This document shows positions 9,814 through 58,025 of a DNA stretch of 64,000 bases, one piece after another; position 1 is the first letter of the stretch, and every line of letters begins with the position of its first letter. Position numbers and translations under genes: made by a program. The notes under the pieces are model-generated. The model saw only the letters and a list, made by a program, of their open reading frames with translations, did no database searches and had not been told where the DNA came from. Origin of the DNA: Paenibacillus hamazuiensis (GTDB lineage Bacteria; Bacillota; Bacilli; Paenibacillales; NBRC-103111). The stretch spans positions 682,001 through 746,000 of the forward strand of contig NZ_JALRMO010000001.1 in assembly GCF_023276405.1 (NCBI RefSeq), in the 5' to 3' direction.

Positions 9814-10554
9814 TTACAGCGTTTGTCCGCCGTCTACGGTCACGATTTGCCCCGTCATCGAATCCTGCTCCAAAACGGCGCAAATCATATGCGCAATATC
9901 TTCCGGAGTCGAGATGCGCTGCAGCAGCAGATTCGTGCTGAGACGGTTCATGGTGTCCTCGCGGCCTTCCCACCATCTGGTGGCGACGGCTCCGGGAACG
10001 ACGCTGCTCACCCGGATGTGCGGAGCCAGGGCGCGGGCCAGCGATTTGGTAAGGCCGTGCACCGCCGCTTTGGATACGGCATACGGAAGCGAGGAGCCGG
10101 AACCCGTTAATCCGGCTATGCTTCCTACGTTGACGACGGCTCCTTGTTTTTTTCGCTTCATCCCGGGAGCAACCGCTCTCGCGCAGAAAAACATTCCCTT
10201 CACGTTGACCGCGTACAGCTCGTCCCATAATTCCTCCGTTGCGGCTTCCAGGTCGTCGAGCGGAATATGCCGCGTGATGCTCGCGTTATTGACGAGCACA
10301 TCGATCTCTCCGAATTGCTTTGCAACGGCTCCAACCATTTCCCTTACTGCCCCGTCGTTCGACACGTCGGCTTGTATCGCAATCGCGCGTCCGCCGGCGC
10401 TTTCGATCAATCGCACCGTCTCCTCCGCCTCAACCTCGGAACGCGAGTAATTCACCGCAACAGCCGCACCCCGCTCCGCGAGCAAGAGACTTACCGCCCT
10501 GCCGATTCCCGTACCTCCTCCGGTAACCAATGCCACTTTGTTTTTTAGATCCAT
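9814..10554 (-). CDS. Short-chain dehydrogenase/reductase
   Basis: This 246-residue classical SDR has the NAD(P) motif TGGGTGIG (11-18), NNAS (89-92), catalytic Asn117, Ser145, Tyr158 and Lys162, and a C-terminal MTGQIVTVDGGQ typical of FabG-like enzymes. It will oxidise or reduce a carbonyl/alcohol with NAD(P)H in the cytosol. The ATG at 10554 has AGGAG 8 nt upstream; the GTG three codons earlier is too close to that site. It stands alone, convergent with the VOC cluster, so its substrate cannot be inferred from neighbours. Confidence 0.92.
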   Translation of the reverse strand: MDLKNKVALVTGGGTGIGRAVSLLLAERGAAVAVNYSRSEVEAEETVRLIESAGGRAIAIQADVSNDGAVREMVGAVAKQFGEIDVLVNNASITRHIPLDDLEAATEELWDELYAVNVKGMFFCARAVAPGMKRKKQGAVVNVGSIAGLTGSGSSLPYAVSKAAVHGLTKSLARALAPHIRVSSVVPGAVATRWWEGREDTMNRLSTNLLLQRISTPEDIAHMICAVLEQDSMTGQIVTVDGGQTL

Positions 10555-10583
10555 GGTAATCACTCCTTAGTCTAGTTTGGAAA

Positions 10584-10760
10584 CGGACAACAGGTACGTT
10601 ATTTGCAGAATATGAAACGATCGAACGTTTGTCCGGACACAGAATACGTTAGTTGCTCGAAAGCGCCGAGGTTGAGGTGTTTTTTCGGCGAATAACGGAC
10701 CCGGTGTCCGAAAAATTTGAAATAAGGCGCTTTTCTCCGAAATAACGAATCTGATGTCCG
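10584..10760. repeat. Four-unit inverted repeat element A
   Basis: Four 23-nt units lie at 10584-10606 and 10634-10656 (one orientation) and at 10688-10710 and 10738-10760 (the other). Each pair is exactly 50 nt apart. Read in one sense, all four share AATAACG or CTAACG near the start and TGTCCG at the end. As RNA, unit 1 would pair with unit 4 and unit 2 with unit 3, giving a long hairpin with paired blocks 50 nt apart. No reading frame crosses it convincingly. Confidence 0.8.
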
Positions 10761-10844
10761 CTTGAATGACACGCAGCGCTACAGAACAAGATGCAAGCCG
10801 AACGACATAGAACTGTTATCCCGCCCAAAAGCAGCTTGCCAAAC

Positions 10845-11030
10845 ATAGCGGAACTCACATTCGCTATTTTCGGATAAATGGGCATATCGGAAAAAATAGA
10901 GGAACTGAGATGCGCTAATTCGTTGGAAAATGGCATGAGTATCGGTCAAAGAGGCAGATAGAGCACCTGAGTTCCGCTAATTTCCAAAATGATCCGAATC
11001 CGGCCACTTAGTGAACTATAGTTCCGCTAT
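10845..11030. repeat. Four-unit inverted repeat element B
   Basis: Units centred on GGAACT begin at 10850 and 10901, and their complements AGTTCC end at 10975 and 11025, so the spacing is 51 and 50 nt. Each unit is also a weak palindrome (TAGCG or TAGAG before GGAACT, CGCTA after). It follows element A by about 85 nt. A close relative lies at 34020-34195. Confidence 0.82.
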
Positions 11031-11225
11031 GGTCCTGCTTAACCTGACCACATCACTCTCGAAGCGTCATAAGGAGCTAAGCCGGCTTCGGAAGGTGGGC
11101 TTCCCCGGTGGGGGACTCAGGGGTAGCTCTGCCACCTATTTTAAAACACGGCACAAATTCTGTATAATTGAATTATCCAATCGAATGGTTCAAAATTTTT
11201 GAATCAATGCAACCGGGGTGGCGCA

Positions 11226-12116
11226 ATGGATCTGAAAACATTAAAAACGTTCCAGGCGATAGTCGCTTACGAGAGCTTTAACCGGGCGGCGGAGGAAATG
11301 AATTACGCGCAGTCGACCGTCACGATGCAAATCCAGAAACTGGAGGCGGATCTGGGTGTCCGGCTCCTCGAGCGCGGGAAAAAATTCCGGCTCACCGAAG
11401 CGGGAAGGCTGTTTCACGAGCAAAGCGCGCAAATCGTCAAGGACATGGAGCAGCTGCAGGCGCGGCTTAAAGATTTGCAATCGGGCGAAGCGGGGCACAT
11501 CCGTCTCGGAGTCCATGAGCCGGCGGCGAGTTACCGTATGCCTGCGATTCTGGGCAGGTTCATATCGCAGTTTCCCGCAATCCGCGTGTCCGTGGATATT
11601 GCCAGCTCCTCCGTTTTGGGCGAACGGCTCGTTCGCGGGGAGCTGGATTTGGCGGTATGCTCGGCGCCGGAAATCGGCACCGAGCTTTATTTCGAGCCGT
11701 TGTTTACGGAGAAGTTCGTGCTGCTGCTGCCGGAAGGACACCCGCTCGCGGAAAAGGTGTCCGTCGTGCCGGACGACCTCCGCGGCCACCGTCTGCTGAT
11801 TACGCAGACCGGCTGCCCGTACCGCAAAAAACTCGAGATCGCCTTGCAGGAATCGGGCGGAACGCCGCTCGATACGATGGAAATCGGAAGCATGGCCGCC
11901 TTGAAATATTACGTCGCGAGCGGGCTCGGGATCGCTTTGGTGCCGCAGACGGTACTGAACCCGGTTCCCGCGGGTACCGCTGTGCGCCCCCTGCACGGCA
12001 ATGCGCTGGCGATGGTCTGCGGCCTCCTATGCAAAACCTCCGACTACCCTTTCAAGCAGGCCGGAGCAAAACTGTACCGTTTTCTAAAGACGGAGTTTTC
12101 CGACGAACCGTTATAA
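11226..12116 (+). CDS. LysR-family transcriptional regulator
   Basis: Residues 1-60 form the LysR winged helix-turn-helix (LKTFQAIVAYESFNRAAEEM, then YAQSTVTMQIQKLE), and residues 90-290 the periplasmic-binding-like effector domain (IRLGVHEPAASYRMPAILG, then LVRGELDLAVCS). Length, 296 residues, is normal. The start at 11226 follows GGGGTGG; nine residues upstream in frame lack the family pattern. The effector domain would bind an unknown small molecule. It precedes a nucleotidyltransferase-fold gene by 28 nt in the same direction. LysR proteins usually act on a divergent neighbour, but here only repeats lie upstream, so the target is open. Confidence 0.9.
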   Translation: MDLKTLKTFQAIVAYESFNRAAEEMNYAQSTVTMQIQKLEADLGVRLLERGKKFRLTEAGRLFHEQSAQIVKDMEQLQARLKDLQSGEAGHIRLGVHEPAASYRMPAILGRFISQFPAIRVSVDIASSSVLGERLVRGELDLAVCSAPEIGTELYFEPLFTEKFVLLLPEGHPLAEKVSVVPDDLRGHRLLITQTGCPYRKKLEIALQESGGTPLDTMEIGSMAALKYYVASGLGIALVPQTVLNPVPAGTAVRPLHGNALAMVCGLLCKTSDYPFKQAGAKLYRFLKTEFSDEPL

Positions 12117-33945: not shown

Positions 33946-34014
33946 TGGGTGCTGCTATGCGCAATGTTGCCAGGTTAACGCGTTCGTATGGCTCGTGGGC
34001 CGAAATTTATTATA

Positions 34015-34200
34015 ATAGCGGATCCCGCGTGCGTTATCTTCGGATAAATGGATACATCAAAAAAATAAAGGAACTGAGATGCGCCAAATTGCCGGAAAAT
34101 GGCGCGAGTACCGAGCGAACAGACAAATAGATCATCTCAGTTCCGCTAATTTTCGAAAATATCCGAAATTGCCCCGTTTAGCGAACCATAGTTCCTCTAT
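34015..34200. repeat. Four-unit inverted repeat element C
   Basis: Units begin at 34020 (GGATCC variant) and 34070 (GGAACTGAGATGCGC); their complements AGTTCC end at 34144 and 34195. The periods are 50 and 51 nt. It is a clear relative of element B at 10845-11030, with GGATAAATGG and GAGTACCGAG-type spacers also partly shared, so this is one dispersed family. Confidence 0.82.
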
Positions 34201-39183: not shown

Positions 39184-41238
39184 GTGCGCTTGGCAGCGCA
39201 TCGTACTAACGGGTGAAAGTCCCGAGCGCACCGCGGGGTGGCGGAAGCGCATAGCCGACTGGTAGTGCTCTGGCCGTAAGGGAGGGTGCGGAGGATCAGA
39301 AGGCAAAACCCGGAACAGGCGGCATGAACCATGTTGGCTGGCGAAGCCGGATAACCCTGCAAGAGAAGGGGACGTCCTATACCACCATAGGCTTCGAAAG
39401 TTAGGAGGACTGGATTCGGGGGAAAGACGATGACGTGACCCAAGGAGGGCTTATCGTCTTCCGCATAGCGGTAAACTCTTTTCAAGGCTTATAGGGCTAA
39501 GACAGAATGATGGATGGTGAGCAGTCATACGAAGGGATAGTAGTGAGAAAGCTTGCCGGAAAAGCCGCAATGGCAAGTGAACCGACACCAACGTTGTCGG
39601 TGCAAGCTTAGACCCAAAAGGCAAAGACTTGGTGCGAAGCCCGGAACCGTGGAAGAAAAGCATAACCACCTAGGAAGCCGTCATGTGCCAGACAGAAGCC
39701 GGGGAGCCAAGAAGAGCGAAGAGCCGGGGCTGAACAAAAGGGTAGGCCGTCTGGGGCGGAGTACCGAAGGGGAACCGGAAAGGCTGAAAGATTAGCTATA
39801 CGTCCGGAAACTGAAAGGGAAGGAACACGAGACATGAAGGAAGGAAAAGGAGAGGTAGGCTTTCGTGAGGGAGTAGAAGTCCCGAGAAAACGCAGATGGC
39901 ACAGCCTCATCGACAAGATATGGGCGATGCCGAACCTTGAGGAGGCATTCCGGGAGGTCAAGCGCAACCGGGGAGCAGCGGGAGTAGACGGAGTGACCAT
40001 AAAGGTATTCGAGAGTGAACTGGAGCGTAACTTAAGAACGCTTCAGCAGGAGCTGCGGGCGAAGGCATACAAGCCGATGCCGGTCAGGCGCATGTACATT
40101 TCCAAGGAAAATGGGGGTCAAAGGCCGCTCGGGATACCCGCAATTCGCGATCGCGTAGTACAGGCGGCGACCCGCCGAATCCTCGAACCGATTTACGAGG
40201 CGACATTTATGGAGTGTAGTTTTGGGTTTCGCCCGGGACGCAGTGCACACATGGCGCTGGAGAACATTCGGAAAGATCTCATGGATGGATACGTTTATGT
40301 GATCGACGCCGACCTGAAATCGTATTTCGATCTCATTCCACATGACAAGTTGCTTAAGGCCGTCAAGGAAGAAGTGGTGGATGGTAGTGTCCTAAAGCTC
40401 ATAGAAAGCTTCTTAAAGTCCGGAGTCATGGAGAACGGAAGTTTTCACCTGAACGAGCAAGGAAGTCCACAGGGTGGGGTTATTAGTCCGCTTTTGGCGA
40501 ATATCTACCTAAACCCGCTGGATAAGCTCATGACTGAACGGAAGCACCGTATAACACGGTACGCCGATGATTTTGTGATCTGCTGCAAATCCCAAAAGGG
40601 GGCAGAGAGGGTACTCCAAGGTGTTATTCGTCTACTGGAACAAGAGCTTGGGCTCAAAGTACACCCGGAGAAAACCAAGATCGTGAACAACTTGGAACAG
40701 TCCTTTATGTTCCTAGGTCATGAGTTTAAACCGGGATTTTGGGTTACTCCATCCTCGAAAGCCAAACAGAAATTTAAAGAACGCGTGAAAGCAATTACGC
40801 GGCGGAACCAAACGGTGAATGTGGAACAGCTGATCCGAAAGAAGTTGAATCCATATTTACGTGGATGGGGTAGCTATTTTGGCTGGGGCAACGTAGGAAG
40901 TCTGATGAGAGAGTACGATGCATGGATAAGGAGAAGGCTCCGGATGGTACAGTTGCGGAGCTGGAAAAAAGCCGAAGAACTTCTACAGGGCACTAAGAAA
41001 GAATAAGTGGAGGGGAGAGCTTCCCAAGATGCGTATGTTCGCATGGAGAAGCTCGCTATCCAAGCCAGCCAGTGTTGCAATGCCAAACGATTGGTTCAGA
41101 GAAAGAGGTCTCGTTTTTCTCGTAGACATCTATAATGAACATCATCCCCAGCGGGGATAAGCGCGGAGGAGCCGGATGCGATGACCCGCACGTCCGGTTC
41201 TGTGAGAGGCCCATGAATTCATTCATGGGCCTACTCGA
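39184..41238 (+). mobile_element. Group II intron (group IIC-like)
   Basis: The 5' end is GTGCG at 39184, directly after the T-run of a terminator hairpin. Domain V is the GC-rich hairpin at 41169-41200 (GAGCCGGATGCG ... CGTCCGGTTC), and domain VI the stem at about 41207-41231 (GGCCCATGAAT/ATTCATGGGCC). A maturase is encoded inside. The total is about 2.05 kb; the 3' end is uncertain by a few nucleotides near 41232-41240. It lies between the AraC sensor gene and the permease pair. It would splice as RNA and retrohome using the RT. Confidence 0.88.
39834..41006 (+). CDS. ltrA: Group II intron reverse transcriptase/maturase
   Basis: The 390-residue intron-encoded protein has RT motifs: GGQRPLGIPAIRDRVVQAA (blocks 1-2), YVIDADLKSYFD (Asp160), QGSPQGGVISPLLANIYL (209-227), and the active-site YADD (243-246). 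A maturase/thumb domain (about 290-380) follows. There is no H-N-H endonuclease tail, so it is shorter than LtrA, as in class C proteins. It helps the intron splice and copies it into new sites. Start at 39834 with AAGGGAAGGAA upstream. The frame is intact, so the intron could be active. Confidence 0.94.
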   Translation: MKEGKGEVGFREGVEVPRKRRWHSLIDKIWAMPNLEEAFREVKRNRGAAGVDGVTIKVFESELERNLRTLQQELRAKAYKPMPVRRMYISKENGGQRPLGIPAIRDRVVQAATRRILEPIYEATFMECSFGFRPGRSAHMALENIRKDLMDGYVYVIDADLKSYFDLIPHDKLLKAVKEEVVDGSVLKLIESFLKSGVMENGSFHLNEQGSPQGGVISPLLANIYLNPLDKLMTERKHRITRYADDFVICCKSQKGAERVLQGVIRLLEQELGLKVHPEKTKIVNNLEQSFMFLGHEFKPGFWVTPSSKAKQKFKERVKAITRRNQTVNVEQLIRKKLNPYLRGWGSYFGWGNVGSLMREYDAWIRRRLRMVQLRSWKKAEELLQGTKKE

Positions 41239-41542
41239 TTGCGCGGCATGTGGGAAATTCGGACAGCGGGAGAAATCTGAATCAAACCGCGGCGAGTGAG
41301 AAAATTGCATCACCCACGCCCTACATCGGTGCTTTTCACGCCGGACGGCCGCTCCCTATAATAAGGCTCAGCGGGCGGATGCGATTCCGCCCGGCGGCCG
41401 GACGACGGGGCATGCACCGAATATCCGGCCGCAGGGAACAGGGGGGATTGTTATTCGAGAGCAGGGAGTCAGGCCGCTCACGGCCGTCGGCCGGACCGGA
41501 GCGAGCCATCCGGTCATCCGCGGGATAACGAGAAGCAAATAT
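41239..41542 (+). other. Leader before permease with promoter and hairpin
   Basis: About 300 nt without a clear gene. TATAAT (41357-41362) is a perfect -10 with a weak TTTTCA -35 element 18 nt upstream. The transcript would begin with a hairpin (GGGCGGA/TCCGCCC, about 41374-41391). The permease frame is open from 41300 but has no ATG, GTG or TTG before the TTG at 41543; a GGGGGG run lies before in-frame ATT codons at 41447 and 41453. The true start is unresolved. Confidence 0.45.
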
Positions 41543-57834: not shown

Positions 57835-58025
57835 TGACGGTTGTGGTAGAGCTTATTTGGCTCAAAATGCTCGTTTTCAAATTCTGACGGTTGCCAGCGA
57901 GCTTATTTGAAGGATTAACCGAACAGAGATTGCCATATTGCCCAAATAACCTCAACCAGAACCATTACAATTTTTAAAATCCGCAATTTTCCTGCAATAA
58001 CCTCTGTGGCAACCGTTATAATTTT
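57835..58025. repeat. Four-unit inverted repeat element D
   Basis: Units starting TGACGGTTG at 57835 and 57885 are 50 nt apart; complements ending at 57967 and 58018 are 51 nt apart. All carry GGTT near the start and (G)TTATTTG or TTATTG near the end. It has the same two-plus-two architecture as elements A-C but a different sequence. The rest of 57725-58113 contains no gene I can support. Confidence 0.75.

Follow-up and report, generated by a model that had tools for sequence, protein, structure and literature searches.

The intergenic region between two divergent genes in the analyzed window (the whole stretch of 64,000 nucleotides from Paenibacillus hamazuiensis) carries two sets of four repeated units, elements A and B. 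The initial annotation ascribed one plan to both elements, two direct and two inverted unit copies with a 50/51-nt step, and suggested that shape rather than sequence is kept, be it a structured RNA, a DNA-folding site, or a mobile element.

Elements A and B and the SDR-LysR locus

The sites of both elements were located by a repeat search and are given in a common 21-base frame. In element A, the direct sites 1 (AAACGGACAACAGGTACGTTA; 10581..10601, forward strand) and 2 (10631..10651, forward strand, 50 bp past site 1) are followed by the inverted sites 3 (10693..10713, reverse strand, 62 bp past site 2) and 4 (10743..10763, reverse strand, 50 bp past site 3). Element B contains the direct sites 1 (TAGCGGAACTCACATTCGCTA; 10846..10866, forward strand) and 2 (10897..10917, forward strand, 51 bp past site 1) and the inverted sites 3 (10959..10979, reverse strand, 62 bp past site 2) and 4 (11009..11029, reverse strand, 50 bp past site 3). 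The spacing is therefore 50-62-50 for element A and 51-62-50 for element B. The unit pattern TAGNGGAACTNNNNTNCGCTA has 13 matches in the window at no more than 3 mismatches, compared with 1.2 expected and no more than 6 in any of 100 shuffles. Thus, the four-unit plan was recovered at the positions described initially, and the unit pattern exceeds chance. The B family has an outer inverted-repeat motif (GTTGTCAGGTTAA), whose right copy is located at 11038..11051 on the reverse strand and whose left copy is unrecognisable at this element. A further repeat module at 11060-11145 (CCGGCTTCGGAAG..CCCCGGTGGGGGACTCAGGGG) adjoins element B. Modules resembling it are also found beside several further B copies, which makes such intergenic regions patchworks of different types of repeat.

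The left neighbor is a gene for an SDR-type oxidoreductase (9814..10554, reverse strand, ATG at 10554), and the right neighbor encodes a LysR-type regulator (11226..12116, forward strand, ATG at 11226); both assignments are based on the ORF list and synteny. Elements A and B with the flanking repeat module lie within 10556..11160, between the SDR gene start and the LysR gene promoter. The SDR-LysR pair is syntenic in four relatives (G094, G006, G203, and G011). In these, the two genes are separated by about 60-130 bp, compared with 606 bp in the window. About 545 bp of the 10556..11160 region are missing in all four relatives, and two of them have 60-65 bp between the match edges. Because the spacers of the relatives are far shorter, A, B, and the repeat module are extra DNA of this lineage. 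The site is element-free in the four relatives, at 66-74% identity, too low to read the exact insertion ends.

Dispersal and common geometry of the elements

Two further elements were identified in the window. A second B-type element at 34016..34199 (forward strand), which the unit pattern also brought to light, has sites at 34016 and 34066 (direct) and at 34128 and 34179 (inverted), with a spacing of 50-62-51 and the left outer motif at 33966-33979. A type C element at 57835..58018 (forward strand) shows the same 50-62-51 spacing, with sites at 57835 and 57885 (direct) and at 57947 and 57998 (inverted); its unit, TRACGGTTG...GAGCTTA, is an unrelated one. The window also contains a group II intron at 39270-41239 (forward strand), recognized by the Rfam families group-II-D1D4-3 (39270-39434) and Intron_gpII (41167-41239).

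Element B is widely dispersed in the 8.8-Mb genome of the organism. At least 40 full-length matches with 79-87% identity were found among 122-126 candidates, and the single-unit pattern has 129 matches compared with 0-1 for a reversed control pattern. Deduplication left at least 80 B copies (85 clusters), nearly all of them with two direct and two inverted units at 50/51-62-50/51. Type C is represented by about 15 close full-length copies and about 25 partial matches. Element A did not prove to be a large family, as DNA similarity revealed just one other close copy (75% identical) in the genome; a further A-type element is located at L230:13847. The unit types of this genome run from A to F, and, judging from about 20 elements in 864 kb sampled, the total may be on the order of 200. 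Carriage by plasmids or phages was considered and rejected, since element B had no match in either the plasmid or the phage collection.

Two kinds of element in the same genome depart from the common layout. A B-type array of at least 10 units at L218:1841-2420 (C1:245.5-246.1 kb) has spacings that alternate between 51 and 72 and ends in a normal 51-62-51 element. Type F is an AT-rich element pair with TATATGAAAAATCATATA units (L237:15084-15262 and L344:11255) that is well conserved across both loci; its direct spacing of 50-52 and its centre near 57-59 perhaps represent a different phase class.

We also used a scan that ignores the unit sequence and requires a pair of similar 23-base stretches at a distance of 50-52, with an inverted pair after it. 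In the window, it retrieved exactly four elements (A, B, and those at 34014 and 57835), and the decoy spacings of 43, 47, 56, and 60 retrieved none. Direct spacings between 36 and 88 were compared in samples of five genomes, with 864 kb from the own genome, 400 kb from each of G203 and G062, and 200 kb from each of G011 and G001. Spacings of 48-53 were the most frequent in the own genome (11/15), G062 (6/11), G011 (14/20), and G001 (7/13); in G203, one element fell in this class and one had another spacing. The same scan of 200 kb of Escherichia coli found none at 48-53 spacing and one at 43, and 165 kb of non-Bacilli loci contained no such elements.

The units that occupy this geometry are of several kinds. 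Those of G011 and G001 (TATCGGAC.. and TAATTGCAC..GTGCAACTA in G011, TAAGGAAC.. in G001, and TTAGGGAA..TTCCCTAA) share hardly any sequence with B, and TAACGGAC.. units are found in G203 and in Calidifontibacillus (Bacillaceae), the latter with a spacing of 50-62-50. The geometry is thus associated with unrelated units in the own types A, B, C, D, and E and in G011, G001, G203, and Calidifontibacillus. The central distance is 62 (plus or minus 1) in nearly all four-site elements in the 21-base frame. With the TA frame and the dyad centres optimised within the scan, it is not exactly 62 for the D copy at L360, type F, the TTAGGG type of G011, and the G001 array, although an estimate from the dyads does place the strongly palindromic G011 families other than arrays at 62. 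Of the two tests named beforehand for whether the architecture is chance, covariation fails but the 50-nt period holds in copies elsewhere, so the architecture is not chance. The proposal that one plan is kept under changing sequence is borne out by the own genome and four further genomes. The families may share ancestry, in which case the agreement in spacing does not represent fully independent events.

In foreign loci, neighboring units are separated by 50-53, 60-63, or 71-73 bp, with almost nothing between these classes. Among 46 foreign four-site elements, the central distance is 61-63 in 36, 71-73 in 9, and 68 in one. The spacing classes (51/52, 61-63, and 71-73) thus differ by whole helical turns, and steps of about 10.3 bp point to sites along one face of B-DNA, for which such steps are expected. 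Tandem arrays at 50-52 bp were also observed, with 15 units each in Alicyclobacillus ferrooxydans (L112) and Cohnella rhizosphaerae (L091) and 10 units in another Cohnella locus (L108); the Cohnella and Alicyclobacillus arrays range from 7 to 15 units at 51/52 bp. Their units are the same or related, and their spacers are unrelated between the genera. In the Cohnella arrays at L072:4115-6220, the unit halves have changed together, with TAGCGGCATnnnATGCCGCTA replacing TAGCGGAACTnAGTTCCGCTA at 51/52 bp spacing. A separate array that repeats about every 43 nt (CAGCATTGCAGGTACTGCCGCCA..) lies beside a B element at L145:1860-2160, L150:3030-3290, and L171:4340-4510, and its extent differs among the three related species.

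Conservation in place and gene context

Five independent orthologous pairs were compared for conservation in place. Units with an exact pattern match were excluded, because such units had brought the loci into the set, and the flanks were taken from local alignments. Divergence is 29/315 (9.2%) in the units, 85/514 (16.5%) in the spacers, and 147/1017 (14.5%) in the flanks, and the difference between units and spacers is significant (Fisher P = 0.0035). Only 2 indel events were counted per 514 spacer bases, compared with 22 per 1017 flank bases (Fisher P = 0.0077). The spacer sequence therefore drifts like that of the flanks, whereas the spacer length is held. The B copies of the own genome show a conservation of 0.90 in units, 0.73 in spacers, and 0.54 in flanks. 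At L099:6640-6961 and L100:932-1186, one species has an insertion (about 320 and 250 bp, respectively) that a close relative lacks. Precise gain or loss of the elements between close relatives was considered and rejected, as the insertions in orthologous pairs are other sequences and not four-site elements.

Gene context was analyzed in the own genome with gene calls from a home-made codon-usage caller. None of the 91 element matches, a few of which are overlapping registers of one cluster, overlaps a predicted gene. The 80 elements with both neighbors called lie between convergent (36), tandem (40), or divergent (4) genes, compared with 58, 204, and 55, respectively, for all junctions. The elements are thus enriched between convergent genes (P = 2.8e-6) and depleted between divergent genes (P = 0.004), and the divergent context of A and B is a rare one.

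Possible nature of the elements

Structured RNA, the hairpin of about 180 nt with paired blocks that the initial annotation pictured, is a very improbable explanation. It is suggested by the imperfect palindromes of the units and by the folding of the region, which is better than that of dinucleotide shuffles (z = -3.7), but the compensating base changes that such a hairpin predicts failed to appear at every level considered. In an RNAalifold alignment of 27 copies, the covariation term is only -0.38 kcal/mol; in 261 units, Watson-Crick counts at partner positions are close to those expected from column frequencies, so that the positions vary independently; and in the 46 foreign elements, the similarity of arms 1:4 and 2:3 does not exceed that of the direct pairs (1:2 and 3:4). 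Element orientation confounds the corresponding own-genome values, which were left out. The sole covariation-like sign is one within-unit compensating change at L158 relative to its orthologues, which also fits a symmetric binding site. An Rfam search yielded no match to the elements even at E<=5, and the spacing steps of about one DNA turn also speak against RNA. Because the spacing is fixed across different site sequences, a protein-DNA array on one DNA face is favored over an RNA hairpin. Intrinsic terminators were rejected as well: the signature of a hairpin with a T run occurs inside 0-2 of 107 elements and between the gene end and the element in 24-32 of 107, an arrangement that also counts against a structured RNA. 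Thus, of the initial interpretation, the kept plan, the dissimilarity to terminators and simple MITEs, and the options of a DNA-folding site or a mobile element stand, whereas the structured RNA does not.

The main rival is a MITE whose paired end sites bind the transposase of one superfamily with a fixed end architecture, the different families being derived from different autonomous elements; we regard it as possible, though unlikely. High dispersed copy number, the absence of A and B at the same locus in four relatives, several families with one geometry per genome, and the fairly sharp ends of the type D pair are all consistent with mobility. The outer repeats point both ways. Usually located 9 nt beyond site 4, the GTTGTCAGGTTAA motif is present within 3 mismatches on the right of 49 of 83 B copies (reversed-motif control, 1/83), but only 27 copies have it on both sides, with 29 having it on one side and 27 on neither, and neither a target-site duplication nor a terminus common to the copies was identified. 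No autonomous parent was seen among the own B clusters, and a two-unit locus (L204) considered as an autonomous transposon is just a truncated element. Tandem arrays of 7-15 units are unlike transposon ends, and the retention of units and spacer length at orthologous places after insertion is unexpected for dead copies. The same retention, with near-absent spacer indels, makes it improbable that the elements are selfish or neutral debris, i.e., old functionless repeats with a geometry inherited from one ancestral element; the uneven copy number (161 exact units here versus 0 in G203 of the same genus) and the high divergence of the copies from each other would agree with such debris, but the geometry outlives recognizable sequence similarity between families. 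Mobilization as REPIN or REP-type sequences by a RAYT (Y1 HUH transposase) is disfavored and highly improbable. As short, palindromic, extragenic, and dispersed high-copy repeats with convergent-gene enrichment and several families per genome, the elements share REP features, and populations of REPINs likewise keep set spacings (PMC3116915). However, REPINs are inverted doublets whose spacing differs by family, e.g., 71 and 110 bp in SBW25 (PMC3116915), and here four units share one spacing across unrelated families. Moreover, Y1_Tnp (RAYT, PF01797) is absent from the unit-bearing genomes G062 (97 units on one contig), G355, G037, G206, G395, and G397 and from the array-carrying genomes of A. 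ferrooxydans and C. rhizosphaerae; as several unit-rich genomes thus do without this family, the elements do not require mobilization as REPINs.

We give about an even chance to the reading that A and B belong to a large class of Bacillales elements, which are dispersed, retained intergenic arrays of phased sites for a putative dimeric DNA-binding protein. Each element consists of four imperfect, roughly mirror-symmetric dyads of about 21 bp (TA-N17-TA in most types) whose centres are separated by 50/51, 62, and 50/51 bp. As these distances correspond to about 5, 6, and 5 turns of B-DNA, all four sites lie on one face of the helix. The protein would occupy the four sites cooperatively, and the bound protein could build one compact nucleoprotein complex, bridged or wrapped, between genes and mainly at gene ends. 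The dispersal, the geometry across unrelated units, the conservation in place, and the lack of covariation are results, whereas the binding, the identity of the protein, its cooperativity, the function, and the mode of spread are inferred. Family-specific site sequences would fit co-evolving or paralogous binders, and the unit types A to F in one genome would imply either more than one binder or a single binder of broad tolerance. Besides this number of unit types, the possibly shared ancestry of the families, and the types that depart from 62 at the centre, it counts against the phased-array reading that A and B themselves lie in the rare divergent context and that the in-place test is carried by only five orthologous pairs.

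The openly licensed papers searched by organism, repeat terms, and unit sequence contain no earlier description of these elements. Resolvase res sites and the Fis enhancer are single-locus sets of phased sites with known proteins. They are generally known to consist of dimer-binding dyads about 50 bp apart for which helical phasing matters; here, by contrast, there are hundreds of dispersed copies with changing site sequence and a putative binder. BOX elements form a boxA-boxB-boxC sequence family. Those of Streptococcus pneumoniae (PMC3049150) resemble the elements as modular Gram-positive intergenic repeats with a variable number of the inner module, whereas here the geometry is common to families without sequence similarity. 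The MITEs bcr1, RUP, and others of Gram-positive bacteria (cited in PMC3733652) are non-coding, dispersed, intergenic, 100-350 bp long, and in some cases bear outer inverted repeats. Unlike in bcr1-type MITEs, conservation here resides in four internal sites and their spacing and not in the termini, and tandem-array variants occur. REPINs and REP-BIMEs (PMC3116915, PMC3686654, PMC3733652) are also short extragenic palindromes with inverted pairing, many dispersed copies, enrichment near gene ends, and several sequence families per genome; the differences are the four units instead of two, the 51-62-51 layout common to unrelated families, the whole-turn spacing steps, and the unit-rich genomes lacking Y1_Tnp.

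Sequence is the usual criterion by which intergenic repeats of bacteria are defined, whereas here a geometry is kept without a common sequence; a search rule based on spacing instead of sequence reveals what sequence-based repeat finders miss. More tentatively, and with a probability that we place below even, these elements may represent a class that has not been described before and extends across the order Bacillales, its conserved and selected feature being the nucleoprotein geometry (four 21-bp dyads at 5-6-5 turns) and not the sequence. Lineages and families would re-implement this geometry with other sites, presumably with matching binders, as a chromosome-organising or gene-boundary system. 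If all of them are assembled by a protein into the same complex, a large set of soil and industrial bacteria would have a so far unrecognised level at which chromosomes are organised or gene boundaries controlled.
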